Of a stretch of 64,000 nt of DNA, positions 2,573 to 25,239 are shown piece by piece. The notes beneath the pieces were generated by a model. The model had not been told where the DNA came from. It did no database searches and saw only the letters and a program-made list of their open reading frames with translations. The stretch lies in the NCBI RefSeq assembly GCF_012926505.1, contig NZ_JABBNT010000008.1, positions 1 through 64,000 on the forward strand, written 5' to 3'. A program made the position numbers and the translations under genes. This DNA comes from Pacificispira spongiicola (lineage in GTDB: Bacteria; Pseudomonadota; Alphaproteobacteria; UBA8366; Aestuariispiraceae). Numbering within the stretch: the first letter of the stretch is position 1; each line of letters opens with the position of its first letter.

Positions 2573-3553
2573 TTGTTTGGGAATTCCAAAAAATTCGGTC
2601 AGGAACAGATCGTTTTCGCCATCACGGTGGCCATGTTCATCCTGTTCTCCCTTTTCCTGGATAATTTCCTGGCGGCGGACAATATTTTCGCGCTGCTGCG
2701 CAGCGTCGCGGTGCTCGGCATTCTCGGTCTGGGGATGCTGATCGTCGTTTTGGGGCGCGGGATCGACCTGTCGCTCGTTGCCAATATGGCGATTTCTGTG
2801 GCCTGGACGTTGCAGCTTGTCGGTACGGGAACACCGTTGGGCTGGGCGATTGCCATCGGTTTGGGCTTCGCCCTGGTGATGAGCCTCGTTTCCGGTCTTT
2901 TGATCGCCTATGCCGAAATTCCGCCGCTCTTCGCTACCCTGGCCATGGGAACGTTCGTTTACGGCTTCGGGCGGGCGCATCTGATCACCGGTACCGACGT
3001 CGTCTATCTACCCGCCGAATTCGGTTGGGCGTCGCATATCGGGCAGGGTCGCCTATACGGGGTGCCGGTCCCGGTCATTCTGGCGATCGCCTTTGCCGCC
3101 GTCGTTTACCTGTTCCTGAAATATACGAAGCCGGGCCAGCAGATTTACGCCGTCGGCGACAATATGGCCGCCGCGCGCATCACCGGCATTCCGGTCCGCC
3201 CGATCCTGGTTCTGCAATATGCCATCGGCGGTATCGTCGCCTTCGCGGCGGGCCTGATTACCGCGACGGCGGTCCAGTCGATGAACACCCGCATCGTCAA
3301 TTCGAACATGATCTATGACGTCATCCTGATCGTCGTGCTGGGCGGGGTCAGCCTGTCTGGCGGACGCGGGAATGTGCGCAATGTGATCGTCGGGACGCTG
3401 CTGATCGGCGTCTTGGTCAACGGCATGACCATCATGGACATCCAATACACGCTCCAGAACGTCATCAAGAGCTTGATCCTGCTGGCCGCCATCGTCGCGG
3501 ACAGCTTCATCAACCCGCGTGACGAACAGACGGGGCAGCAGGGCGACATCTGA
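2573..3553 (+). CDS. Ribose-type sugar ABC transporter permease
   Basis: 326 aa, all hydrophobic, of the RbsC/XylH/LsrC permease family (BPD_transp_2). The family EAA-like loop is visible in the region of 'VLGGVSLSGGRGN' near residue 260, and 'GRGIDLS' near residue 60 matches the conserved 'GGIDLSVG' segment. The start is a TTG chosen because GGGGAGG lies five bases upstream; no ATG fits. It is the first gene of a co-directional operon with a binding protein, a second permease fused to a propeller, an ATPase and two dehydrogenases. It is presumably one half of a heterodimeric membrane channel. The substrate is unknown. Confidence 0.9.
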   Translation: MFGNSKKFGQEQIVFAITVAMFILFSLFLDNFLAADNIFALLRSVAVLGILGLGMLIVVLGRGIDLSLVANMAISVAWTLQLVGTGTPLGWAIAIGLGFALVMSLVSGLLIAYAEIPPLFATLAMGTFVYGFGRAHLITGTDVVYLPAEFGWASHIGQGRLYGVPVPVILAIAFAAVVYLFLKYTKPGQQIYAVGDNMAAARITGIPVRPILVLQYAIGGIVAFAAGLITATAVQSMNTRIVNSNMIYDVILIVVLGGVSLSGGRGNVRNVIVGTLLIGVLVNGMTIMDIQYTLQNVIKSLILLAAIVADSFINPRDEQTGQQGDI

Positions 3554-3633: not shown

Positions 3634-4674
3634 ATGGACGTTAAGACAAAATTGAAAGGGGTCGCGGCTGCCGCGCTGACGTGCCTCGCCCTTGGTGCGA
3701 CCCTGGGGGCGACAGTCGTGTCCGCCCAGGAACCGAACGATCCGTTCCGCGGACCGGCACTCGAAACGCTGGACGGCAAATGGGTCGCCTATTTGCCGAT
3801 TTCCGCGGGCTTCGATCTCGCCCAGGCCTGGGGCGGCGTGGTGAAGACGGAAGCCGAACGCTACGGCATGAAATTCACGATCCAGGATCCGAACTGGAGC
3901 ACGGACGCCATGGCGCAGGGCATGACCTCCCTGATCGCCGAAGGTCCGGATGTGATCGTGACGCAGAACCCGGATACGCAGTCCCTGGCGCGTTTGCTGA
4001 TGCAGGCGAACAAGAAGGGCATCGTGGTCGTCCAGATGAACATGCAGGGCGCGGTGCAGACCGACGCTTTCGTCGGCCCGGACTATATCGCGCTCGGCCG
4101 TCAGATCGCGGGCATGATGGTCGACCGCTGCGGCGCGGGCACCGATACCTCGCATAAGGTTTCCATCGTGCAGGGCGTGCTGACCGGCGGCGTCAGCTAC
4201 TTCCAGGTCCAGGGCATCATGGAAGTTCTGGGCGAGCACCCGGAAATCGAAATCGTGTCCAGCCAGGCCGCGGACTGGGATGCCAGCAAGGCGCGGGCGA
4301 TTACGGAAACCGTCCTGCAGCAGCATCCGGATCTGTGCGGCGTCATCGACGTCTGGGACGGTCAGGGTATCGGTACCGGCGCCGCGATCAAGCAGGCGGG
4401 CCTTTCCGACAAGGTCTATATGGTGACCTCCGGCGGTGGCGCGCAGAGCGCGTGCGATCTTCTCAAGGACGGCACCTTCTCCGCCGTCGTCAACTATGAC
4501 GCCCCCGGCATGGGCCGCGACGCGTGGAGCGCGATCATGATCGCGCTGCAGAACGGTCAAGGCGGCGGTGCCATCAAGACGATGCTGTATTCCCCGACCT
4601 TCGTGATGACGAAGGACGATGTGAAGGACGGCACTTGTTGGGATGCCGGTCAATACGCGGCGATGCTGCGTTAA
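3634..4674 (+). CDS. Periplasmic sugar-binding protein of the ABC importer
   Basis: 346 aa. A Sec signal peptide (positive start, hydrophobic residues 10-28, cleavage near 'VVSAQE') precedes a type I periplasmic binding fold (Peripla_BP_4, the RbsB/XylF class). The segment 'GPDVIVTQNPDTQSLARLL' near residue 110 and the later 'WDASKAR' are typical of this class. AGGAGGAAG gives a strong ribosome binding site. It would bind the solute in the periplasm and deliver it to the two permeases encoded on either side. A stable stem-loop follows the gene, which suits a product needed in excess over the membrane subunits. Confidence 0.9.
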   Translation: MDVKTKLKGVAAAALTCLALGATLGATVVSAQEPNDPFRGPALETLDGKWVAYLPISAGFDLAQAWGGVVKTEAERYGMKFTIQDPNWSTDAMAQGMTSLIAEGPDVIVTQNPDTQSLARLLMQANKKGIVVVQMNMQGAVQTDAFVGPDYIALGRQIAGMMVDRCGAGTDTSHKVSIVQGVLTGGVSYFQVQGIMEVLGEHPEIEIVSSQAADWDASKARAITETVLQQHPDLCGVIDVWDGQGIGTGAAIKQAGLSDKVYMVTSGGGAQSACDLLKDGTFSAVVNYDAPGMGRDAWSAIMIALQNGQGGGAIKTMLYSPTFVMTKDDVKDGTCWDAGQYAAMLR

Positions 4675-4720: not shown

Positions 4721-4805
4721 CTCGTTCCCGCGTAAGATTCATTCACACGTACGTTCCGTCGCCCATTTCCGGCGACGTGCATGAACCCTGGGGAGGGTGG
4801 CCGCC

Positions 4806-6932
4806 GTGTCTGTTGCGAACACGATTACGAAGCTCCGCTATCGGTATCTGCCCGATCACATGATCGGCGAGATTCTGTCGAAGAACTGGATCGACAATGC
4901 CATTCCCTTCCTGGTGATGGTCGCTGTCGTCGGCGTCTTTGGGACGCTGCTGCCGAACTTCTTTTCCGGCAGCAACATGGAAATCCTGGGTCGGCAGTAT
5001 GGGGAGTTCGCACTGGTCGTCATCGCGATGATGGTGGTGATCGTCGTCGGGGGGATCGACCTGTCGGTCGGGTCCAACTTCGCCCTCGGCAACTTCGCCA
5101 TGCTATATTTCCTCAATCTTGCGGAACTGCCGACCGGGGTGTCGGCCCTGTTGGTGATCCTGATTTGCGGCGGTGTCGGTCTTATCAACGGTTTGCTGAT
5201 CGGCTATATGCGGCTCCGCGCCTTCCTGACCACGCTGGTAACGCTGATCATCGTGCGGGCCGTGGTCGATATGCTGTTGCTGGAATATGCCCAGCAAATG
5301 TCGATGAGTTTCTATTCCTCCCCCCTATGGGACACGATGGGTATGGGCGGCTTCGGGCCCCTGCCGTTCAGCTTCGCCGTTTTGGTTGTCGTGGCGGTGC
5401 TTGGGCATATCGCGATCACGCGGTCGCGGCCCGGCTGGCGCGCACTGGCAATCGGCGGGTCGCGCCGGTCCGCATACAATATCGGCCTGCCGGTTCGGCG
5501 CATCGTCTGCTCTGCCTATGTTCTGTCCGGCATGTTGGTCGGGGCGGCGGGCGTTCTGTATGCCGCGCGGTTGAGCGGCGCCGGAACCGATACCGGCATG
5601 GGTATGGAAATCGCGGCGCTGACGGCGGCGATCCTGGGCGGCAACAGCCTGGGCGGCGGGCGTGGATCGGTGGCGAAGGCCCTGATCGGCGCGGTTACCG
5701 TGCTGGTCCTGACGAACGGCGTGCTGCGTCTCGGCTTGAATAGCGGGTCCGGTCCGATGGTCCTGGGCCTCACCCTGCTGGCGGCGGTGTTCATCGACGT
5801 CCGCTGGCTTAAGAACCGCGGGAAACTGCTGAGCAAGGTCTACGTTTCCCCGACCTTGATGGAAATGCCGCAGCCCCGGTCGACGGAAGACGGCCCGCTG
5901 GCGGTGAACGACCGGTTGAGCGATGTCGAGGTGATCGCCCTGGGCAAGGTCGAAAGTCCCGAAGACGTCATCCTGGATGAAAACGACTACCTCTATAGCG
6001 GCAGCCGCCACGGCGACATCATCCGCTATGCCCCACCGAACTATACGGAACATGAGGTTTATGCCCATATCGGCGGATCGCCGCTGGGCATGGCCTTTGA
6101 CAAGGACGGCAACCTATTGGTCTGCGTCGGCGGCATGGGGCTGTATAGGGTCGACAAGGATCGGAACGTCACCAAGGTGACGGACGAAACCAACCGCTCC
6201 ACCTTCTCCGTCGTCGATGACAGCCGACTGCGTCTCGCGGACGATTTGGATATCGCCCCGGACGGGAAGATCTATTTCTCCGAAGCGACGATCCGGTACG
6301 AAATGCATGACTGGCCGGTCGATGCCCTGGAAAGCCGGGGCAACGGGCGCATCATCTGCCACGACCCGAAGACCGGCAAAACGCATACGGAAATCCGCAA
6401 CCTCGTCTTCCCGAACGGCGTCTGCACCAGCCATGACGGGCAGTCGATTCTGTTCGCCGAAAGCTGGGGCTGCCGGGTCAACCGCTATTGGATCGCGGGG
6501 CCGAACAAGGGCAAGCTGGAGGTGCTGATCGACCGTTTGCCGGGCTATCCCGACAATATCAACCGGGCGTCGGACGGGACCTATTGGGTCGCCATCATGG
6601 GGATGCGGTCCCCCGCGCTTGATCTGGCGTTGCGCATGCCGGGCTTCCGTCGCCGCATGGCGCGCCGGATCGCCCCGGATCAGTGGCTGTATCCGAACCT
6701 GAATATCGGTTGCGTCGTGCGGTTTAACGACAAGGGGGAGATTCTGGAATCGCTGTGGGACCGCAAGGCGGCCAACCATCCGATGATCACTTCCATGCGC
6801 GAACATAAGGGCTGGCTCTATCTGGGCGGCATCACCAACAACCGGATCGGGCGTGTCCGCCTGAAAGGGATGGATGACAGTTGGAGCGGCTGGTCCAGTT
6901 ATTGGGGTAAGAAGACGGGAGGTCAGGCATGA
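4806..6932 (+). CDS. Sugar ABC permease fused to a strictosidine-synthase/SMP-30-like beta-propeller
   Basis: 708 aa. Residues 1 to about 325 form a complete RbsC-like permease ('GGIDLSVGSNFALGN', and 'GGNSLGGGRGS' as the EAA-like loop). A basic stretch (RWLKNRGKLLSK) then points the C terminus into the cytoplasm. From about residue 365 to 700 there is a six-bladed propeller like Str_synth/SMP-30 lactonases, with 'FPNGVCTSHDG', 'ESWGCRVNRYW' and 'LPGYPDNINRASDGTYWV'. The PDN motif is the expected metal-site neighbourhood. No frameshift or stop separates the halves, so the fusion is real in this sequence. GTG 4806 is preferred to GTG 4797 because GGGGAGGG ends 8-9 bases before it. The propeller could hydrolyse an imported lactone or act as a substrate sensor. 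Confidence 0.88.
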   Translation: MSVANTITKLRYRYLPDHMIGEILSKNWIDNAIPFLVMVAVVGVFGTLLPNFFSGSNMEILGRQYGEFALVVIAMMVVIVVGGIDLSVGSNFALGNFAMLYFLNLAELPTGVSALLVILICGGVGLINGLLIGYMRLRAFLTTLVTLIIVRAVVDMLLLEYAQQMSMSFYSSPLWDTMGMGGFGPLPFSFAVLVVVAVLGHIAITRSRPGWRALAIGGSRRSAYNIGLPVRRIVCSAYVLSGMLVGAAGVLYAARLSGAGTDTGMGMEIAALTAAILGGNSLGGGRGSVAKALIGAVTVLVLTNGVLRLGLNSGSGPMVLGLTLLAAVFIDVRWLKNRGKLLSKVYVSPTLMEMPQPRSTEDGPLAVNDRLSDVEVIALGKVESPEDVILDENDYLYSGSRHGDIIRYAPPNYTEHEVYAHIGGSPLGMAFDKDGNLLVCVGGMGLYRVDKDRNVTKVTDETNRSTFSVVDDSRLRLADDLDIAPDGKIYFSEATIRYEMHDWPVDALESRGNGRIICHDPKTGKTHTEIRNLVFPNGVCTSHDGQSILFAESWGCRVNRYWIAGPNKGKLEVLIDRLPGYPDNINRASDGTYWVAIMGMRSPALDLALRMPGFRRRMARRIAPDQWLYPNLNIGCVVRFNDKGEILESLWDRKAANHPMITSMREHKGWLYLGGITNNRIGRVRLKGMDDSWSGWSSYWGKKTGGQA

Positions 6933-8008
6933 TCGGCGCGATCACGTCCATGCTGGACAACTTCCTGGGGCGCGGCAGCGCGGCGGTAACCGTGCCGCCG
7001 ATGGACGGCGCCCTGAAGCCCAACAATAGCCTCGAAGGCCTGCCGCCGGGCATCGCCGCAAAGGCACCCGGCAATCTGGTCCAGATCGACGGTGCGCCGG
7101 CCTGGTCGGATGGGGCGGATGTCGTCTCGTCCTCCGGGACCGTCGTCCTGACCGTCGGCGCCCCGATCACCGCCCTGGCCGTCCGGAATGACGGTGTGAT
7201 CGCCGTGGCGGCGCTGAATGGCGTTCTGTCGATTTTCGACAAGGACCGCAACGACATCACCCCAGCCTGGACCCGCAGGCCGGACCATGTCACCGCGATG
7301 TCTTTCGGGTCGAAGGGAGAGATCCTGTTCTGTGTCGGGTCGGAAACCAACGATCCGGAAAACTGGCCGAAGGACCTGATGGAAAAGAATGCCAGCGGTT
7401 GGGTCGGCGCGGCGTCGGTGGAGACGGGGGACATCTTCGTTCTGGCAACGGATATGGCCTATCCATCCGGGATCGTCCAATTGCCGGATGACACCGTTCT
7501 TGTCAGTGAGGCTTGGGTCAGTCATCTGATCGTGCTGGGACCCGGCGCGAAACGGACCATCGTTCTGGATGAAATTCCCGGCTATCCGGGGCATCTGAGC
7601 AAATCGAGCGGCGGCGGTTATTGGCTGTCGGTCTTCGCGCCCCGCAATCCGCTGATCGAATTCGTGCTGCGGGAACCGGGCTACCGATCCGCCATGATGC
7701 GCGAGGTGCCGCAGGAATTCTGGGTCGCCCCGGCCTATGCCAGCGGTGAGTCCTTCCTGGAACCGTTGCAGGGCGGGGCCTTGAAACAGATGGGCATTCT
7801 GAAACCCTGGGCGCCGTCGCGGTCCTACGGGCTTGTCGTCCAACTGGATGGCGATTTCATCCCGATGCGCAGTTTCCACAGCCGGACCGGCGGTCGCCGC
7901 CATGGCGTCACGTCTGCCCTGGATATCGGCGGAACGCTTTGGCTGACCAGCCGTGGGGCATCCGAAGTTCTGACCTTCCTGCCGGACGAGAAGGGGGAAA
8001 GCCGATGA
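6929..8008 (+). CDS. Free-standing strictosidine-synthase-like beta-propeller protein
   Basis: 359 aa with no signal peptide. It overlaps the upstream fusion gene by ATGA, so the two are translationally coupled. The sequence resembles the propeller of that fusion: 'IPGYPGHLSKSSGGGYWLSV' followed by 'PLIEFVLREPGYRSAMM' lines up with 'LPGYPDNINRASDGTYWVAI' and 'PALDLALRMPGFRRRMA'. The PDN motif has become PGH, so the metal site seen in active SMP-30/paraoxonase-type enzymes may be altered. Possible roles are a second lactonase, a binding protein, or a regulatory partner of the importer. Its function cannot be assigned from sequence alone. Confidence 0.8.
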   Translation: MIGAITSMLDNFLGRGSAAVTVPPMDGALKPNNSLEGLPPGIAAKAPGNLVQIDGAPAWSDGADVVSSSGTVVLTVGAPITALAVRNDGVIAVAALNGVLSIFDKDRNDITPAWTRRPDHVTAMSFGSKGEILFCVGSETNDPENWPKDLMEKNASGWVGAASVETGDIFVLATDMAYPSGIVQLPDDTVLVSEAWVSHLIVLGPGAKRTIVLDEIPGYPGHLSKSSGGGYWLSVFAPRNPLIEFVLREPGYRSAMMREVPQEFWVAPAYASGESFLEPLQGGALKQMGILKPWAPSRSYGLVVQLDGDFIPMRSFHSRTGGRRHGVTSALDIGGTLWLTSRGASEVLTFLPDEKGESR

Positions 8009-9504
8009 GCACGCTCGTCGAACTGAAATCCGTCACCAAATCCTTCCACGGCGTGAATGCGGTGAAATCGGTCGATTTCGACCTGCGCGCCGGGGAAATC
8101 CATTCGCTTCTGGGCGAAAACGGCGCGGGCAAATCGACCCTGACCAAGATCATCGCGGGCGTGTATGAGCCGAATGAAGGCGAGGTTTTGTTCAAGGGGA
8201 AGAAGATCAACTTCTCCAACCCGCATGAAGCGCTGGAAAACGGAATTGCGATGGTGTTCCAGGAAACCAGTCTGGTGCCGTCGCTGACCGTCGCCCAAAA
8301 CCTGTATCTGGGGCGGGAATCCTTCGTGAACCGGCTGCGCGGAATCTATATCGCCGCGCAGCAGTTCCTGCAGTCGCTGAATTTCGACGTCGACCCGACC
8401 ATGTTGGTGTCTCAATTGGGGGCGGCGCAAAAGCAGATGGTCGAAATCGCCCGCGCGGTTCATCACAAGGCGGAAATCATCATTTTCGACGAGCCGACGG
8501 CGACCCTGACGCCGGAGGAGAAGCACCATTTCTTCGCCCTGGTCCGGCGGCTGAAGAAGGACGGCGTGTCCATCATCTTCATCAGCCACGCGCTGGAAGA
8601 GGCCTTGGACATCTCCGACCGGATCACCATCCTGCGGGACGGGCAGCATGTCGTGACCGACGATGCGAATACCTTCGATCGCGATAAAATCGTGGCGGCG
8701 ATGGTCGGACGCAATCTGACCGACGAAATCTACGGCAGCGCCAGCCGCAACCGGAAGGCCCGTCCCATGGGCCGCCGGATTTTGAGCTGCCAGAACCTGT
8801 CCATGGGATCGATGGTCCGCAATACGTCCTTATCGATCTTCAGTGGCCAGATCACCGGGATTTTCGGCTTGATAGGGTCGGGACGGACGGAAACCTTCAA
8901 GATCATTTCCGGCGTCGTGAAACGCGATTTCTTCCATGGCGGGGAGGCGCGCCTGGAAGGGAAGCCGGTGCGCTACCGCGTGCCGCGTCCGGCGGTGAAG
9001 GACGGCATCGTCTATGTCACCGAAGACCGAAAGCTGGAAGGCTTCTTCGAAACCAAATCCATCGCCGAGAATATCTATTCCGGCCTGCTGGGCGCCGATC
9101 TGAACAAGTCGCTTACCGTCAGCTACAAGGAAATGATCGATCTGGCGGATGTCTGGTCGAAACGCCTGAACGTGAAGGCCATCGACAGCAATGCGAAGGT
9201 GATCGAACTGTCCGGCGGGAACCAGCAGAAGGTCGTGGTCGCCAAGGCATTGGTGCAGAAGCCGAAACTGATCATCTTCGACGAACCGACACGCGGCGTG
9301 GATGTCGGCGCGATCGCTGAAATTCACAAGGTCATCAACGAACTGGCCGATTCCGGCATGGCCGTGGTCGTGATTTCGTCCTATCTCCCGGAAATTCTAA
9401 ATCTATCGGATCGCATATTGGTCTATCGTCTGGGCCGTGCCGTCGAAGAGTTTTCGATGGAAGAAGCGAGCGAAGAAAAAATCATGTACGCCGCGGTTCA
9501 CTGA
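8005..9504 (+). CDS. Sugar ABC transporter ATPase with two nucleotide-binding domains
   Basis: 499 aa, the usual length for RbsA/MglA/XylG. The first domain has Walker A GENGAGKST near residue 34 and Walker B 'IIFDEPTATL'. Its signature is the atypical LGAAQKQ, as is common in this class. The second domain has a degenerate P-loop (GLIGSGRTE) and a strong signature LSGGNQQK, also family-typical. The start at 8005 overlaps the previous stop by ATGA and follows GGGGGA; a longer in-frame start at 7939 lies inside the previous gene and is less likely. It powers the importer formed by the two upstream permeases. Confidence 0.92.
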   Translation: MSTLVELKSVTKSFHGVNAVKSVDFDLRAGEIHSLLGENGAGKSTLTKIIAGVYEPNEGEVLFKGKKINFSNPHEALENGIAMVFQETSLVPSLTVAQNLYLGRESFVNRLRGIYIAAQQFLQSLNFDVDPTMLVSQLGAAQKQMVEIARAVHHKAEIIIFDEPTATLTPEEKHHFFALVRRLKKDGVSIIFISHALEEALDISDRITILRDGQHVVTDDANTFDRDKIVAAMVGRNLTDEIYGSASRNRKARPMGRRILSCQNLSMGSMVRNTSLSIFSGQITGIFGLIGSGRTETFKIISGVVKRDFFHGGEARLEGKPVRYRVPRPAVKDGIVYVTEDRKLEGFFETKSIAENIYSGLLGADLNKSLTVSYKEMIDLADVWSKRLNVKAIDSNAKVIELSGGNQQKVVVAKALVQKPKLIIFDEPTRGVDVGAIAEIHKVINELADSGMAVVVISSYLPEILNLSDRILVYRLGRAVEEFSMEEASEEKIMYAAVH

Positions 9505-9526: not shown

Positions 9527-10657
9527 ATGAAGATCAAAGCCGCCGTTCTGGAAGAGATTGGCCGTCCCGGCCCCTATGCGGAAACCAAACCCGTCACGGT
9601 TCAGGAGATCGATCTGGAAGCCCCGCGCAAGGGCGAGGTGCTGGTGAAGATGGTCGCGGCGGGGATTTGCCATTCGGACCTGTCGGTCGTGAACGGCGAC
9701 CGCCCGCGTCAGACCCCCATGGTTCTGGGCCACGAAGGGGCGGGCGTCGTGCAGGCCGTCGGAGAGGATGTCACGGACCTGCATCCGGGCGATCATGTCG
9801 TCAGCGTCTTCGTGCCCAGTTGCGGCCATTGCGGCCCGTGTCAGAGCGGCCGCCCCGCCCTGTGCGAGCCGGGGGCGGCCGCCAATGGGCGCGGTGAATT
9901 GCTGTCCGGCGGCACGCGGTTGAGCCGGAACGGGGAACCCGTCTACCACATGACCGGGGTTTCCTGCTTCGCCGATCATGCGACAGTGTCGCGACGGTCC
10001 CTGATCAAGATCGATCCGCGCATCCCGCTGCATATCGCCGCCCTGATGGGCTGCGCGGTGCTGACCGGCGCAGGCGCGGTGTTCAATAGCGGCGATGTGA
10101 AACCGGGCGGCACCACGGCGGTCGTCGGTCTGGGCGGGGTCGGTCTCGCCGCCGTTATGGGGGCGTTGGTCGCCGGGGCGGAAAAGGTCATCGCCATCGA
10201 CCGCCTGCCGGAAAAATTGGAACTGGCGTCGGAATTCGGGGCCACGCATACGGTAAATTCCAGCGACGCGGATGCCGTCGCGGCGGTGAAGGACCTGACC
10301 GGCGGCGGTGTCGACGTGGCGCTGGATTTCACCGGCAATGTCCATGCCCTGCGTTTCGCCTACGACATCACGCGGCGCGGCGGCACGACGATCACGGCAG
10401 GCCTGCCGAACCCGAAGGCGCAGTTGGAGTTGCCGGCGGTCACGCTGACGGCGGAAGAACGGGTTTTGAAAGGCAGCTACCTCGGTTCCGGGGTGCCCAG
10501 TCGCGATATCCCCAAATTCCTGGATTTGCACGCTTGCGGCCGCATGCCGGTCGAAAAACTGATGACGCACCGCATCCGGCTGGAAGACATCAACGAAGGG
10601 TTCGACCGGCTGCATGACGGGGCGGCGATCCGTCAGGTCATCGACTTCACGCTGTAA
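9527..10657 (+). CDS. Zinc-dependent alcohol dehydrogenase (MDR family)
   Basis: 376 aa medium-chain dehydrogenase. Catalytic zinc residues lie in 'GICHSD' and 'GHEGAG', and the structural zinc lobe is 'CGHCGPCQSGRPALC'. The Rossmann motif is 'VVGLGGVGLAA'. The length and the GHEGAG motif resemble class III-like and aryl/long-chain alcohol dehydrogenases. The ATG at 9527 follows GGGAGGAAAAG. Encoded 22 bases after the transporter ATPase and just before an aldehyde dehydrogenase, it probably oxidises the imported alcohol, or the product of the propeller enzymes, to an aldehyde in the cytoplasm. Confidence 0.9.
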   Translation: MKIKAAVLEEIGRPGPYAETKPVTVQEIDLEAPRKGEVLVKMVAAGICHSDLSVVNGDRPRQTPMVLGHEGAGVVQAVGEDVTDLHPGDHVVSVFVPSCGHCGPCQSGRPALCEPGAAANGRGELLSGGTRLSRNGEPVYHMTGVSCFADHATVSRRSLIKIDPRIPLHIAALMGCAVLTGAGAVFNSGDVKPGGTTAVVGLGGVGLAAVMGALVAGAEKVIAIDRLPEKLELASEFGATHTVNSSDADAVAAVKDLTGGGVDVALDFTGNVHALRFAYDITRRGGTTITAGLPNPKAQLELPAVTLTAEERVLKGSYLGSGVPSRDIPKFLDLHACGRMPVEKLMTHRIRLEDINEGFDRLHDGAAIRQVIDFTL

Positions 10658-10686
10658 AGCACGTTTCAGATCAAGGGCCGTTCGTT

Positions 10687-12183
10687 ATGAAGCGCATTAC
10701 CGAAAACAAGACCTATCAATGCTATATCGGCGGGGAATGGGTCGATCCGCTGTCGGGCGATTATTTCGAAACCGACGATCCGTTTACGGGCAAGACCTGG
10801 GCGCGTATCCCTCGATGCAACGCGGATGACGCCGATCGCGCCGTTGCTGCCGCCAATCAGGCGCTGACCAAGGGCGCCTGGGCGGATATGCACCCGACGC
10901 AACGCGGTCAGTTGCTGAACCGTCTGGCGGACCTGCTGGCGCGGGATGCGGATCATCTGGCGGCGATCGAGGTCCAGGACAATGGCAAGCTCTATGCGGA
11001 AATGCGCGCGCAAACGGGCTATATCCCCCAATGGTATCGGTATTTCGGCGGTCTGGCGGACAAAATCGAGGGTTCCGTCCTGCCGATCGACAAGCCGAAC
11101 ATGTTCACCTATACGCGGCATGAGCCGGTCGGGGTCGTGGCCGCGATCACGCCCTGGAATTCGCCCCTGCTGCTGGCCACGTGGAAATTGGCCCCGGCCC
11201 TGGCGGCGGGATGCACAATCGTCCTGAAGCCGTCGGAATTTACCTCCGCCTCCGCGTTGGAATTCTGCAAACTGGTCGACGAAGCCGGGTTCCCGCCGGG
11301 CGTGTTCAACGTCATAACCGGCTTCGGCGCCGAAGTCGGCGAGCCGCTGACGACACACAAGGATGTGCACAAGATCGCCTTCACCGGCGGCGAGACCGGT
11401 GGCCGCCATGTTGCGAAAAGCGCGGCGGGCACCTTCAAGCGCCTGACGCTGGAACTGGGCGGTAAGTCCGCGCAACTGGTCTTCCCGGACGTGAACATCC
11501 AATCCGCCGTGCGCGGTGTTGTCTCCGGCATTTTTGCCGCGACGGGACAGACCTGCATCGCCGGATCGCGGGTCTTCGTGCATGAAAGCATCCACGACGC
11601 CTTCCTGGATCAGTTTCTGGAATTGGCCAAGACCGCGCGCATGGGCGACCCGATGGATTCCGCGACGCAGGTCGGGCCGGTAACGACGAAGCCACAATTC
11701 GACCGCATCCTATCCTGTATCGCGATGGCGAAGGACGAAGGGGCGGATTGCGTCCTGGGCGGTATCCCGTCGGAACGACCGGAATGCGGCAATGGCCGCT
11801 TCGTCGAACCGACTGTCTTCTCCAATGTCACCAACAGCATGCAGATCGCGCAGCAGGAAGTCTTCGGCCCCGTCCTGTCGGTTATCAAGTTCCGGGAGGA
11901 AGAGGACGCTTACGACATGGCGAACGATACGCCTTACGGCCTTGCCGCCGGGGTATGGACGACCGACCAGGGCCGCATGTTCCGGGCGGCGAAACGCCTG
12001 CGCGCCGGTAACGTCTGGACCAATTGCTATCGCGCGGTTTCCTACATGGTGCCGTTCGGCGGGTTCAAGGCGTCCGGCCTGGGCCGCGAGAGCGGCCAGG
12101 ACGCGATATACGACTACCTGGAAACCAAATCCGTCTGGATGGATTACGGGGACGGCCCCGCCAATCCGTTCATCATCGGATAA
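10687..12183 (+). CDS. NAD(P)-dependent aldehyde dehydrogenase
   Basis: 498 aa, full length for the ALDH superfamily. The catalytic Glu is in 'LELGGKSA' and the nucleophilic Cys in 'GQTCIAGSR'. The 'EVFGPVLSV' and 'PFGGFKASGLGRE' segments are also standard. The sequence is close to the betaine/phenylacetaldehyde/2-hydroxymuconate semialdehyde group, but the exact substrate cannot be read. It lies 29 bases after the alcohol dehydrogenase and ends the operon. The two enzymes would turn the imported alcohol into a carboxylic acid. Confidence 0.9.
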   Translation: MKRITENKTYQCYIGGEWVDPLSGDYFETDDPFTGKTWARIPRCNADDADRAVAAANQALTKGAWADMHPTQRGQLLNRLADLLARDADHLAAIEVQDNGKLYAEMRAQTGYIPQWYRYFGGLADKIEGSVLPIDKPNMFTYTRHEPVGVVAAITPWNSPLLLATWKLAPALAAGCTIVLKPSEFTSASALEFCKLVDEAGFPPGVFNVITGFGAEVGEPLTTHKDVHKIAFTGGETGGRHVAKSAAGTFKRLTLELGGKSAQLVFPDVNIQSAVRGVVSGIFAATGQTCIAGSRVFVHESIHDAFLDQFLELAKTARMGDPMDSATQVGPVTTKPQFDRILSCIAMAKDEGADCVLGGIPSERPECGNGRFVEPTVFSNVTNSMQIAQQEVFGPVLSVIKFREEEDAYDMANDTPYGLAAGVWTTDQGRMFRAAKRLRAGNVWTNCYRAVSYMVPFGGFKASGLGRESGQDAIYDYLETKSVWMDYGDGPANPFIIG

Positions 12184-19566: not shown

Positions 19567-20730
19567 ATGATCCTGCACGAACTGATCGACTATGAAATCC
19601 TGCGCGTGATCTGGTGGGCCTTGTTGGGCGTGCTGCTGATCGGGTTTGCCATGACGGACGGGTTCGATATGGGCGTCGGGGCGCTGCTGCCCTTCGTCGC
19701 CAAATCGGACACGGAACGTCGGGTCGCGATCAATACGGTGGGGCCGGTCTGGGAAGGAAACCAGGTCTGGTTCATCCTGGGCGGTGGGGCGATCTTCGCC
19801 GCATGGCCGCCGCTTTATGCCGTCAGCTTCTCCGGCTTCTATTTGGCGATGTTCGCCGTTCTGGCGGCGCTGATCCTGCGGCCCGTGGCGTTCAAGTATC
19901 GGTCCAAGCGAGACTCCGCCGCATGGCGCAGCGGCTGGGATTGGGCCTTGTTCGTCGGCGGCGCGGTACCGGCCCTGATCTTCGGCGTGGCGGTTGGCAA
20001 TGTGCTGCAAGGCGTGCCGTTTCAGTTGAGCCCGGATCTGTTCTCCCGCTACGAAGGATCCTATTACGGTAAATTCGTCGGCCTGCTGAACCCGTTCGCG
20101 CTGTTGGTCGGTGTCGTTTCGCTGTCCATGCTGCTGACGCATGGGGCGGCCTGGCTGTCCCTGAAGACCGAGGGAATCGTCGCGAAACGGGCGCGAGCCA
20201 TCGGCACGGTGACAGGCCTGCTGACGATCTTGGGATATGCGCTGGCCGGTGCCTGGCTGGCCTATGGCATCGACGGTTATGCGCTGTCGGGAGAGGTCGT
20301 CACGAACGGTCCGTCCAACCCGCTCTATTCCGAAGTCGCGCGGACCGGCAGCTGGTTGTCGGCCTATACCGACCGACCGTGGATCGCCATCGCGCCGGTG
20401 CTGGCCTTCATCGGCATGGCGCTGGCGGTGCTGGGCCTGCGGGCCGGGCGGGAAGTCTCGACGCTGCTGTGGTCCAAGCTCGGCATCTTCGGGGCGATTT
20501 CCTCCGTCGGCTTGACGATGTTCCCGTTCATCCTGCCGTCCTCCCTCGACCCGCGCAGTTCCCTGACCGTATGGGACAGTTCATCCTCGCATCAGACGCT
20601 TTTCGTGATGCTGGTCGTCACCGTGATCTTCATGCCGATCATCCTGGCCTATACCGCCTGGGTCTACAAAGTGCTTTGGGGCAAGGTCACGGAAAAGGAC
20701 GTTACCGGTAATTCGGACACCGTCTACTAA
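19567..20730 (+). CDS. cydB: Cytochrome bd ubiquinol oxidase subunit II
   Basis: 387 aa with eight to nine membrane helices. The N terminus contains '[24 protein letters not shown]', followed by '[15 protein letters not shown]', both hallmark CydB segments. It pairs with CydA to form the oxidase core. It starts 5 bases after the cydA stop, so it is co-translated. A short cydX gene follows 18 bases later. Confidence 0.97.
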
Positions 20731-20748
20731 TCGGGAAAGGATAAGACG

Positions 20749-20883
20749 ATGTGGTATTTCGCATGGCTTCTGGGCCTTCCCCTGGCCGCCATCTTCGCCG
20801 TTGCCAACGCCATGTGGCTTGAAATGCAACGCGACCGTCGTCTGACGGAAGAGAATGGCGCGGACAGCGCCGTCGCCGACTAA
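20749..20883 (+). CDS. cydX: Cytochrome bd small subunit CydX
   Basis: 44 aa, beginning MWYFAWLLGLPLAA. One membrane helix is followed by 'NAMWLEM' and a charged tail, the standard CydX/YbgT pattern. GGGAAAGGATAAG precedes the ATG. In E. coli, CydX is needed for stable, active bd oxidase. Its position directly behind cydB supports the call. The gene is too short for most ORF finders. Confidence 0.93.
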   Translation: MWYFAWLLGLPLAAIFAVANAMWLEMQRDRRLTEENGADSAVAD

Positions 20884-20914
20884 CGGACGGATAACCGACG
20901 GAAGGGCTATCGAT

Positions 20915-21310
20915 ATGCATACCGAAAATCTGGCCGAAAATCTGGATGCAGGCGTGTTGGAGCATTGGACGGCGGATGAGGTCTATGCCGCCATGCTGGA
21001 TCACAAGATCGTGGTAATCGATGTGCGCACACCGCAGGAATATTCCTTCGAACATGTCGAGGGAACGCTGTTGGCCCCGCTGGCAACCTTCGATCCGGCG
21101 ATGATGCCGACCCAGGACGGCAAGCGGATCGTGTTCCATTGCGGGTCCGGGGTGCGGTCCCGCAAGGTGGCGGAAGCCTGCGCCGCGGCGGGCATGACGC
21201 CTGTCGCCCATATGGAGGGCGGGTTCGCGGCCTGGAAGACGGCGGGTCTACCCTATATCGCGACCGATCCGGCGACAGGCGGTATCCGCCATGTGGCGAA
21301 GGCCAGCTAG
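20915..21310 (+). CDS. Rhodanese-domain protein
   Basis: 131 aa, a single rhodanese domain. The catalytic loop is CGSGVRS near residue 74 ('VFHCGSGVRSRK'), with the first Cys as the persulfide-carrying residue. The CH2A-like motif 'VIDVRTPQEY' is near residue 32. Such proteins move sulfane sulfur, often in sulfide or thiol stress. ATG 20915 follows GGAAGGG and is preferred to an upstream in-frame start at 20855 inside cydX. It is the last gene of the cyd cluster, whose CydDC exports thiols. A link to thiol or sulfide homeostasis is an inference. Confidence 0.9.
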   Translation: MHTENLAENLDAGVLEHWTADEVYAAMLDHKIVVIDVRTPQEYSFEHVEGTLLAPLATFDPAMMPTQDGKRIVFHCGSGVRSRKVAEACAAAGMTPVAHMEGGFAAWKTAGLPYIATDPATGGIRHVAKAS

Positions 21311-21347
21311 GGACCGTTTGCCGGGATGGCCCGCAACACAATCGGCC

Positions 21348-22469
21348 TCAGGCCATGCTGCCGATCGTGTTGCGGAACCGGATTTGGGCGAAGGCGAATA
21401 GGATCGACCCGATCCCGGCCAGTGCGACTAGTTGCGGCCAGACGACGTCCAGCCCTGCCCCGCGGAACAGCACGGCCTGCGCCAGCATGACGAAATGCGT
21501 GTTCGGTGCACCCAGCATGATGAACTGGACGAATTCCGGCATGCTTTCGCGGGGCGTCTGTCCGCCGGACAGCATTTCCAGGGGTAACAGCACCAGGATC
21601 ACCAGCAGCCCGAATTGCGGCATGGACCGCGCTACGGTGCCCAGGAAAATTCCCATCGACGTCATGGCGAATAGCTGCAGGGCTGTGCCGACCAGGAACA
21701 GGCCGACGGACCCGGCGATAGGCACGTCGAGTATCTGCTGAACGACGACGGTCAGGGCGAAAGTCGACGCCGCAAGCACGACCAGTCCCATAGACCAAAC
21801 CTTGCTGAGCATGATTTCAAACGGGGTTACCGGCATGACCAGAAGATGTTCGACGGTCCCGTGTTCCCGTTCGCGGATCAGCGCTGCGCCGGTCAGGACG
21901 ATCGAAAGCATGGTGATGTTGCTGATCACTTCCATGATCGACCCGAACCAGGATTTGTTCAGTTCCGGATTGAACCGCGCCCGCAAGGTCAGTTCCACCG
22001 GCTGGGTCGGTTCCGCCCGATAGCGGCGGACGAAGGCGGCGACCTCCTGATCGATGATGGACTGGATATAGCCGCCGCCGGTGAAGGCTTGGCTCATCCG
22101 CGTCGCGTCGACATTCAATTGGATCATGGGGCGCCGGCCGGCCAGGACGTCGCGCTGGAAATCCGGCGGGATGTCGATGGCAAACGTATCCAACCCGGCA
22201 TCCATCCGATCATCCATTTCCGACCGCTCTATGATCGCGGGCGGTATGAAGTAAGGGGGGTAGAAGGCCTCCTGGATACGCAGGGACAGGGGGGATCGAT
22301 CCTCGTCGACGATGGCGATGGTCGATTTGTTCAGGGTTTCCGGCATCGCCGTCGACGCGGCATAGATGGCGAGCGAGAAGGCGTAAATGATCAGCCCCAA
22401 CATGACCGGGTCACGCCCCAAGCTGCGGAATTCCTTGATACCGAGAGTCAGGATGTTCGATAGGCGCAT
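21348..22469 (-). CDS. ABC-2 type transporter permease (YhhJ-like)
   Basis: 373 aa. An N-terminal helix is followed by a large extracytoplasmic loop (about residues 50-175) and then five C-terminal helices, typical of the ABC2_membrane_3 family. The sequence resembles E. coli YhhJ: 'REREHGTVEHLLVMPVTPFEIM' is a hallmark segment. It is the last gene of the three-gene minus-strand operon with RbbA-like and HlyD-like proteins, starting 4 bases after the RbbA-like stop. The system probably exports a small molecule or drug across the envelope; its substrate is unknown. Confidence 0.88.
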   Translation of the reverse strand: MRLSNILTLGIKEFRSLGRDPVMLGLIIYAFSLAIYAASTAMPETLNKSTIAIVDEDRSPLSLRIQEAFYPPYFIPPAIIERSEMDDRMDAGLDTFAIDIPPDFQRDVLAGRRPMIQLNVDATRMSQAFTGGGYIQSIIDQEVAAFVRRYRAEPTQPVELTLRARFNPELNKSWFGSIMEVISNITMLSIVLTGAALIREREHGTVEHLLVMPVTPFEIMLSKVWSMGLVVLAASTFALTVVVQQILDVPIAGSVGLFLVGTALQLFAMTSMGIFLGTVARSMPQFGLLVILVLLPLEMLSGGQTPRESMPEFVQFIMLGAPNTHFVMLAQAVLFRGAGLDVVWPQLVALAGIGSILFAFAQIRFRNTIGSMA

Positions 22470-22473
22470 GGTC

Positions 22474-25239
22474 TCACGCCTCCTGTTTCTTCAACAGAAG
22501 GACGGATAGGAAGATCAGGACGGGAACCGTCAACGCCAGTGCCAGGAAGGGGGCCGACAGGTCCGAAAATCCCAATGCCTTGGAAAACGTTCCGCGTGCG
22601 ATGGTCAGGAAATGGGTGGTCGGATAGACCTCCCCGATTACTCGGCCCAGCCCGCTTAACGACGGCACCGGATCGGTCAGTCCGGAAAAACTGACGGCGG
22701 GCAACATCGTCATGATCGTGGTGCCGAACAGCGCGGCGATCTGACTGCGCATGAAGCTGGAGATCAACAGGCCGATTGCCGTCGTAGCGCTGATATAAAG
22801 AAGCGCGCCCAGGATCAACGCGAAGACGCTGCCCTTCATCGGCACCTCGAACAGGAACACCGCAAACAGGGTCAGAATCAAAAAACTGACCATGGACAAG
22901 GCGATATAGGGCACTTGTTTTCCCAACAGGAATTCGAGCTTCGTCGTCGGGGTCACATAGAAATTTGTGATGGACCCCAACTCCTTTTCCCGAACGACGC
23001 TCAACGACGCCAACATGGCCGGGATCATGACCAAAAGGATCGGAATGATCGCGGGGACCATGGCGATCAGGCTTTTTACATCGGGGTTGTAGCGGTAGCG
23101 GATCTCTATTCCCGATGGGGCGGTGAGGAGGTCCGCACGACCTGACTCGCGTGCCTTTACCGACAGCCATTGGGCGTGGATCGCCTGGACGTAGCCGACG
23201 ATGGTATCCGCCCGCATCGGCATGGCCCCGTCGATCCAGGCGGCGACCTCAACCATGCGGCCACGGGCGATATCGCGGGCGAAGCCCGGCGGGATTTCCA
23301 CCGCCAGCGATATGTCGCCGTCCCGCATGCGTCGGTCGAGATCCGCATGGCTGGCAAGGGGAGGTTGTTCCTCGAAGTACCGAGACCCGGCAAGGTTCAG
23401 GGTATAATCCCGGCTGACCGTTGTCTGATCCCGGTCCAACACCGCATAGGTCAGTCCTTCGACATCCATGGAGACCCCGTATCCCATAACGAATAGCAGG
23501 ATCGTGCTACCCAGTATCGCCATGGTCAGCCGGATCGGATCGCGGATCAGTTCCAGCGTTTCGCGCCGGGCGTAGCTGAACATCCGCCGCGGATTGAAAT
23601 GGCGTCGCCATCCGTCCAATCCATTTGCGGATTTTGTCGGGGGGGCTGCCGTTTCCGTCGAATGTGGAAGCGGTTGCGTGTCATCCGACAGGTCGCTTGT
23701 CGCCTCTTCCAGATACCCGATGAACGCGTCTTCCAATGTCTCCGCGCCGCGATCCGCCACCAGCGTCTTGGGCGGCGCGGTCGCCAGCACCCGCCCCGCA
23801 TGCATCAGGGATATACGGTCGCAGCGTTCGGCCTCGTTCATAAAATGGGTGGAAATAAAGATCGTCACCCCATCCCGGCGGGACAGGTCGGCAATGATCC
23901 GCCAGAACGCGTCCCGTGCGACCGGGTCCACACCGGATGTCGGTTCATCCAGGATCAGGATTTCCGGCTTGTGGATCATCGCGACGGCCAAAGACAGGCG
24001 TTGACGATGGCCCAATGGCAGCTTGTCCGGCAGCGCGTCCAGATGGTCGGCCAGCCCGAACTGATCGACGACTTCCGCGACCCGATGTGCGATCTCTTCC
24101 GGCGGTACATGGAACAGTTTTGCATGCAGTTCCAGGTTCTGACGCACCGTCAATTCGGTATAGAGCGAAAAGAACTGCGACATGTATCCGACACGGCGCC
24201 GGGTCGCGATATCGGTCGGTTCAACAATTTGGCCGAACAGCTGTGCATCGCCCTCACTGGGTTCCAGCAACCCCGTCAGCATCTTCATTGTCGTCGTCTT
24301 GCCGCAGCCGTTGGACCCCAGGAAGCCGAAAATCTCCCCTCGGCGGATACGGAAACTGACCCGATCGACCGCCGTGAAATCGCCGAAGCGCATGGTCAGG
24401 CCGTCCGCCTCGATGGCGATGTCGCGGTCGGTGACTTTATCGGGTTGGGGCGGAATGGTCAGGGGGGCGTATTCGCGGCGCAAATCTTCTGGCAGCAACC
24501 GGACAAAGGCGGTTTCCAGCGATGTCGTGTCGGTCTTGGACAGCAGGGCTTGCGGCGTGTCGCTGTCCAGCACGCGCCCGGCATGCAGGGCGATCAACCG
24601 GTCGAAGCGCATGGCCTCTTCCATATAGGCGGTGGCGACGAGGATGCTCATCTCCGGCCGGTCGGCGCGGATGCCGTCGATCAAGTCCCAGAACTGTCGC
24701 CGGGCCAGCGGGTCCACCCCGGTCGTCGGTTCGTCGAGGATCAGCAAATCCGGGTCGTGAATCAGGGCGCAGCATAGGCCCAGTTTCTGCTTCATCCCGC
24801 CGGACAGTTTGCCCGCTGGGCGGTCCATGAAGGCGCTCAGCCCGGTGGCGCGGGCCAGCATCTGGATGCGTTGTTTCCGGTCCGCCGCGCCATAGCCGAA
24901 GAGGCGCCCGAAGAAATCGATGTTTTCGAACACCGATAGTGTCGCATAAAGGTTTCGGCCCAAACCCTGCGGCATATAGGCGATTTTCGGGCAAACCGCG
25001 CGACGGTGCGCGGCATCGGACATATCGCCGCCCAGGACCTCGATCCGGCCTGCCTGAATGGCGCGCGCCCCTGCGATCAGGGACAGCAGGCTGGACTTGC
25101 CCACGCCGTCCGGGCCGATCAGCCCCACGATCTGCCCTGTCGGAATATCCAGCGCGACATCAATCAGCGCATCCGTCTTCTTATACCGCAGGGATACGCC
25201 TTGCAGGCGGACGGCGGGTAGAAGGGGGGTGTCGGTCAT
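22474..25239 (-). CDS. rbbA: RbbA-like ABC transporter: two ATPase domains fused to an ABC-2 permease
   Basis: 921 aa. The first ATPase (residues about 15-240) has 'GPDGVGKSS' and '[12 protein letters not shown]'. The second (about 290-520) has 'GSNGCGKTT' and its own Walker B '[11 protein letters not shown]', with '[11 protein letters not shown]' in place of a canonical signature. An ABC-2 permease follows from about residue 570 ('[16 protein letters not shown]'). This architecture is that of E. coli RbbA/YhiH, reported to bind ribosomes and hydrolyse ATP, but the family is better described as exporters. ATG 25239 overlaps the HlyD-like stop by ATGA; an upstream start at 25272 is less likely. 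The operon is yhiI-rbbA-yhhJ. Confidence 0.92.

Follow-up and report, generated by a model that had tools for sequence, protein, structure and literature searches.

The window analyzed here, 64,000 nucleotides of Pacificispira spongiicola (contig NZ_JABBNT010000008.1, positions 1 to 64,000), contains a conserved five-gene importer whose third gene joins an ABC permease to a beta-propeller. The genes are ordered permease 1, binding protein, permease 2::propeller 1, propeller 2 and double ATPase, and two dehydrogenase genes follow them (Table 1). The fusion is a single open frame from the GTG at 4806 to the stop at 6932, in which the permease extends to ~5831 and propeller 1 begins at ~5892. The ATG of propeller 2 overlaps the TGA of the fusion, and the ATG of the ATPase overlaps the TGA of propeller 2, each as ATGA, with propeller 2 translationally coupled to the fusion. 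The alcohol dehydrogenase frame opens at 9437, and the ATG at 9527 is its likelier start.

Table 1. Features of the cassette and its downstream neighbors in the window.
Feature	Position	Strand	Details and evidence
Permease 1, RbsC/AraH-like, first cassette gene	2573..3553	+	326 aa, TTG start; BPD_transp_2 E 1.9e-27
Periplasmic binding protein	3634..4674	+	346 aa; Peripla_BP_4 E 1.1e-47; signal peptide by eye only
Shine-Dalgarno-like GGGGAGG, serving GTG 4806	4790..4796	+	sequence
Permease 2 :: strictosidine-synthase-like propeller 1	4806..6932	+	708 aa; Pfam, AlphaFold2, VIA-align, 91 same-type ORFs
Propeller 2, metal site mostly lost	6929..8008	+	359 aa; no Pfam match; hhalign, Foldseek, site counts
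RbsA/AraG-like ATPase, two ABC domains	8005..9504	+	ABC_tran, 2 stretches, E 4.5e-55
Zinc alcohol dehydrogenase, downstream neighbor	9527..10657	+	ADH_zinc_N E 6.7e-31
BADH-like aldehyde dehydrogenase, downstream neighbor	10687..12183	+	Aldedh E 2.4e-177

A permease-propeller fusion in a five-gene importer

Both permeases match BPD_transp_2 over the Pfam cut-off, as do 49 of 49 fusions, and propeller 1 carries the Pfam signatures Str_synth and SSL_N. Its AlphaFold2 model has a predicted strictosidine synthase/TGW6-type propeller fold that VIA-align aligned to 8kg3 and to strictosidine synthases, which agrees with the propeller type named by the first-pass annotation. That annotation had also placed the propeller in the cytoplasm, and our computation supports the cytoplasmic side of the permease as the likely location; the model (pTM 0.58) is uninformative on the position of the propeller with respect to the pore. 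A sequence search for solved relatives of the permease part gave none that was credible, with one match at E 0.77.

We collected 122 loci by a genome pattern scan, a plasmid search and sampled genomes, including 20 picked for an unfused propeller. The RbsC-type permease and the propeller read from this one frame recur together as 91 fused ORFs in 90 loci; of the remaining 12 loci, three hold only pieces (L055 and L062 run into contig ends, and L058 is interrupted) and a further nine match one domain. The first-pass annotation had allowed that a sequencing error at the junction might have joined two separate genes. We found nothing in favor of such an artifact, and because the same fusion recurs in 90 loci, which include several from complete genomes or plasmids and all 20 of the regions taken from sampled genomes, the conserved frame rules out a sequencing error or chance frame as its origin and leaves that reading a negligible probability. 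In the Pseudophaeobacter leonis draft (L058:10001-11964) the fusion frame is broken inside the propeller, by draft error or decay.

Fusion-length frames were present in 7 of 289 sampled genomes of the class Alphaproteobacteria, a count that leaves out one 753-aa frame whose match fell below the cut-off. A sample of the phylum yielded such frames in 11 of 398 genomes, all 11 Alphaproteobacteria, and in other classes 19 genomes with only shorter frames of 354-520 aa. A pattern scan of contigs, with patterns drawn from the window's own protein and thus reaching close relatives only, returned 69 loci: nine matched one domain only, and the 60 strong ones were all from Pseudomonadota, including Bordetella, Variovorax and an Alcaligenaceae. 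Cassettes of Pantoea and Paraburkholderia came from plasmids. The fusion is thus found in many Alphaproteobacteria and some Beta- and Gammaproteobacteria. Since the set contains near-copy loci (L053/L060 and L046/L076), locus counts do not equal independent events.

The five genes travel together. A script requiring permease 1 and the binding protein upstream and the ATPase downstream, on the same strand and no more than 5 kb away, plus propeller 2 at any position in the locus, found the full set in 81 of 90 fusion loci. Seven of the nine misses are contig ends (L018, L019, L023, L027, L029, L040 and L052); in L084 the binding protein is present in the annotation, and in L056 the script picked a second cassette (44% identical) cut by the locus end, the first being complete. 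Propeller 2 is missing solely from L019, L023 and L052, each of which ends before its place, and all 20 regions from sampled genomes have the five genes in the same order. The genes adjoining the cassettes vary, and the pair of alcohol and aldehyde dehydrogenases stands beside it in 22 of 88 tree rows, those of the window's lineage, window included. L056, from Marivibrio halodurans, carries two cassettes ~10 kb apart with fusions at 10007-12121 and 20505-22637, which are 62% and 44% identical to the window's; the second is by far the longest branch of the tree.

With the CUT2 ABC importers of the ribose, arabinose and allose type (RbsABC, AraFGH and AlsABC) the cassette shares BPD_transp_2 permeases, a Peripla_BP_4 binding protein and a double-domain ATPase. 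Unlike those systems, it has an enzyme-like propeller ending one permease and a second propeller gene. No NCBIfam cut-off was reached by the permeases or the binding protein (all rows) or by the ATPase (best 25 of 188). We are nearly certain that the cassette is an importer, and assign it to a distinct CUT2-like ABC importer family. Both components, a CUT2-like importer and a strictosidine-synthase-like propeller, are of known kinds; their combination is new among the literature matches listed.

Whether the architecture was already catalogued had been left undecided by the first-pass annotation. Public records do contain the fusion but mostly label it as an enzyme: of 12 annotated regions, 10 name it 'SMP-30/gluconolactonase/LRE family protein' and 10 list propeller 2 as a 'hypothetical protein', so that the transporter half is hidden in the annotation. 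An open literature search aimed at the architecture gave, among the matches listed, no paper describing a permease-propeller fusion. The portions available of two matches, PMC6710368 and PMC9964261, merely tabulate an SMP-30 protein, with blr6437 named.

Two propellers with different metal sites

E389, D483, N540, D586 and N587 are invariant in all 92 propeller 1 sequences (the window's and those of the 91 ORFs; 89 of the 92 reach 690 aa or more), and position 482 is occupied by D in 83 and by N in nine. Mapped through TGW6, these positions contain the metal ligand set E, N/D, N, D/N of DFPase/SGL-type hydrolases. In this mapping TGW6 N167, N226 and N272 pair with D482, N540 and N587 in a HMMER alignment with a hand-counted 28-residue offset, and E59 pairs with E389 through a structural alignment range accurate to within one residue; the DFPase set (E21, N120, N175, D229) was taken from the title of a PDB mutant entry. 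The part of PMC10958001 available places E59, N167, N226 and N272 of TGW6 at the calcium site of the superfamily, with a single acid and no bound calcium. Most propeller 1 copies, with D482 beside E389, therefore have a second acid that is absent from TGW6. Among 21 unfused bacterial relatives, E389 is shared by 21, N540 and D586 by 20 each and N587 by 16, and 17 have D and three have N at residue 482; because these residues are mostly shared, the propeller 1 site is that of the wider family. An intact metal site in propeller 1 is thus a well-supported prediction, and we consider the chances of an enzymatic role for this domain about even.

Propeller 1 differs from TGW6 and the strictosidine synthases in being membrane-fused and bacterial. 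Strictosidine synthase proper has a catalytic glutamate and Pictet-Spengler activity, and the stretch around that glutamate gave no significant alignment with propeller 1. Structural alignments to the Ca2+ propeller hydrolases DFPase, SMP30/gluconolactonase, Drp35 and the RPA3624 lactonase gave 14-20% identity, and none of the PDB entries for these hydrolases, judged by their titles, is part of a transporter.

The window's propeller 2, which lacks a Pfam match of its own, aligned to propeller 1 by hhalign (probability 99.9, E 1.8e-33) and to strictosidine synthase by Foldseek (E 1.8e-14), and Str_synth matched 19 of 47 members of its family; these comparisons identify it as a predicted paralog of propeller 1. 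We paired the site positions of 90 propeller 2 sequences to propeller 1 through the hhalign alignment. All 90 have A, G or S in place of D586, and none has N or D in place of N587; in the 482 slot four have N and none D, and 30 retain N540. The ligand set is therefore absent, with at most two of the four slots kept in any of the 90 sequences. At the E389 slot an acid persists in 83 of 90 (D in 79, E in four), though the window has G, and this slot may therefore still bind some ligand. Propellers with intact and degenerate sites are thus maintained side by side, and propeller 2 is fused to a permease in 0 of 89 cases. A short helix is predicted at residues 2-13, ahead of the propeller. Propeller 2 also has a conserved insertion (window 7760-7834, residues 278-302; consensus EPMQGGALKQMGILKPWAPTRSYG) that is absent from propeller 1, within which residues 282-298 have low AlphaFold2 confidence; it possibly contacts another subunit.

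The two propellers also differ in constraint. Averaged across 3160 locus pairs, pairwise identity falls from 0.677 in the ATPase and 0.656 in propeller 1 to 0.557 in permease 2, 0.552 in permease 1, 0.471 in the binding protein and 0.444 in propeller 2; binding proteins differ widely, with identity down to 28%. By this measure propeller 1 appears conserved like the motor and propeller 2 variable like a cargo-facing part. The constancy of propeller 1 points to a shared chemistry or a shared coupling role and argues against a free-riding domain; it would fit shared chemistry and, equally, a coupling or regulatory role independent of substrate.

A tree built from 28 sampled loci plus 21 unfused relatives separates three groups, propeller 1, propeller 2 and the unfused proteins, each confined to one side of a branch (support for the unfused branch is weaker, 88/84). 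This is compatible with one origin for each. The order of these origins is undecided because the tree is unrooted and the propeller 2 branches are long. We rejected an intermediate stage in which unfused propellers sit beside ABC importers: in 21 unfused loci, covered with flanks of ~5 kb that contig ends sometimes truncate, nothing matched the cassette's permease 1, binding protein or ATPase.

Cargo and the HMG-CoA reductase neighbors

The genome of the window contains a second full cassette (G000:C14, L072:6165-12955) whose fusion is 55-56% identical to the window's. Directly before its permease 1 lies a degradative HMG-CoA reductase gene (438.8 bits against a TIGR00532 cut-off of 259.95), and a MocR-like regulator, with NCBIfam matches below cut-off, faces away. 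The reductase passes the TIGR00532 cut-off in L072 and L097 and is identified by annotation in L081; in all three it lies upstream of the cassette in the same direction. Among these, Shinella HZN7 has, by annotation, the reductase directly before permease 1 together with a divergent PLP-dependent regulator-type gene; in G334 a CoA transferase gene and then an enoyl-CoA hydratase gene lie between the reductase and the cassette. Only three of 88 tree rows have a reductase within the fetched locus. In the class sample the reductase exceeds the cut-off in 14 of 289 genomes, including three of the seven with a fusion (G000, G203 and G281), at a distance from the fusion of 16 kb in G281 and ~260 kb in G203. 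The three reductase-linked fusions were not recovered as one clade: only L072 and L081 pair firmly, and L097 lies near them with weak support and other cassettes between.

Ruegeria pomeroyi, Tistrella mobilis and R. etli 8C-3 have the same reductase and a divergent PLP/MocR-type regulator, as do L072 (regulator below cut-offs) and L081 (by annotation), but an unrelated transporter stands where the three cassettes do: after the reductase comes a TRAP transporter in the first two species and a TTT permease in the third. The cassette therefore seems to fill a mevalonate-uptake slot, and we regard a mevalonate link for some cassettes as a lead. A neutral cyclic hydroxy-lactone, for instance mevalonolactone, would be a fitting cargo for a sugar-type importer and would give the fused propeller a purpose. 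TRAP transporters carry acids, so the reductase-linked cassettes may instead import mevalonate itself, with no lactonase needed. The Ruegeria, Tistrella and R. etli loci are three of four plasmid records (L131-L134) that have the degradative reductase beside a PLP/MocR-type regulator gene and are candidate mevalonate uptake loci; unrelated transporters lie downstream in these three (TRAP twice, TTT once), and in the fourth, L131, no transporter is listed directly after the reductase.

We do not claim that the window copy imports mevalonate, as the sole HMG-CoA reductase match of this genome is at the second copy. A sugar lactone found no support as its cargo, the neighbors being the alcohol and aldehyde dehydrogenases. 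Other neighbors in the window's lineage, for example the fatty-acid oxidation, CoA transferase, citrate-lyase-like and MmgE/PrpD genes of L073 and several unnamed clusters inspected by eye, point to no single pathway.

Models for the propeller pair

Our best explanation, which falls just short of an even chance, is an importer with a built-in cytoplasmic propeller 1 hydrolase for small lactones or esters and a pseudoenzyme partner in propeller 2. The binding protein would deliver a small neutral lactone or ester, the permease heterodimer and double ATPase would import it, and propeller 1 would open it at the inner mouth; propeller 2, acting as a pseudoenzyme, would pair with either propeller 1 or the ATPase and hold or tune it. 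The product would pass to neighboring catabolic enzymes, namely the alcohol and aldehyde dehydrogenases at the window copy and, at the second copy, HMG-CoA reductase, for which the cargo would be mevalonolactone or mevalonate. The nearest solved relative of propeller 1, TGW6, hydrolyzes an ester (IAA-glucose), which supports this explanation; that TGW6 has a similar site and binds no calcium counts against it. The first-pass annotation had identified the fusion and proposed channeling of a lactone or ester to a hydrolase, but had overlooked propeller 2, the five-gene cassette and the second copy. Channeling is plausible given the retained metal site and the three cassettes beside HMG-CoA reductase genes, but a near-constant propeller 1 beside variable binding proteins is a poor fit to a separate hydrolase for each substrate.

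The same pattern of constraint can be read without catalysis. Trans-inhibition by C-terminal domains occurs in some other ABC importers, and propeller 1, fused on the cytoplasmic side, might bind the imported compound or its product and stop or speed the ATPase, with propeller 2 as the cargo-specific half. This sensor role would explain why propeller 1 comes close to the ATPase in conservation, why propeller 2 resembles the binding protein in variability and why the propeller 2 gene is tightly coupled between the fusion and ATPase genes. Yet a pure sensor need not keep hydrolase metal ligands in 92 of 92 sequences, and the same site is common to unfused relatives. These points are not decisive, and we judge the sensor role less likely than the hydrolase but well worth considering. 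We think it less probable still that the propellers are structural, holding the heterodimeric permease to the ATPase or docking downstream enzymes while the metal merely stabilizes the fold. Two propellers do match two unlike permeases, and the short predicted helix before propeller 2 would suit such a role, but the pocket ligands are fixed though the neighboring enzymes differ between cassettes.

Extended to the family, the hydrolase explanation would make the cassette an importer class that couples uptake to chemistry, in which a fused metal-dependent propeller opens a lactone or ester at the permease inner mouth with the help of a pseudoenzyme twin that evolves with the cargo. We advance this broader proposal only tentatively. 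Recognizing the fusion corrects a common annotation that hides its transporter half, the pair of intact-site and degenerate-site propellers provides a clean test system, and the HMG-CoA reductase loci offer a candidate cargo. If the proposal is true, a cassette beside HMG-CoA reductase would be a mevalonolactone importer-hydrolase, and hydrolysis by propeller 1 would act as a trap that stops cargo leaking back. ABC importers are generally regarded as passing their cargo on unaltered; this family would then provide an uncommon example of uptake combined with catalysis.
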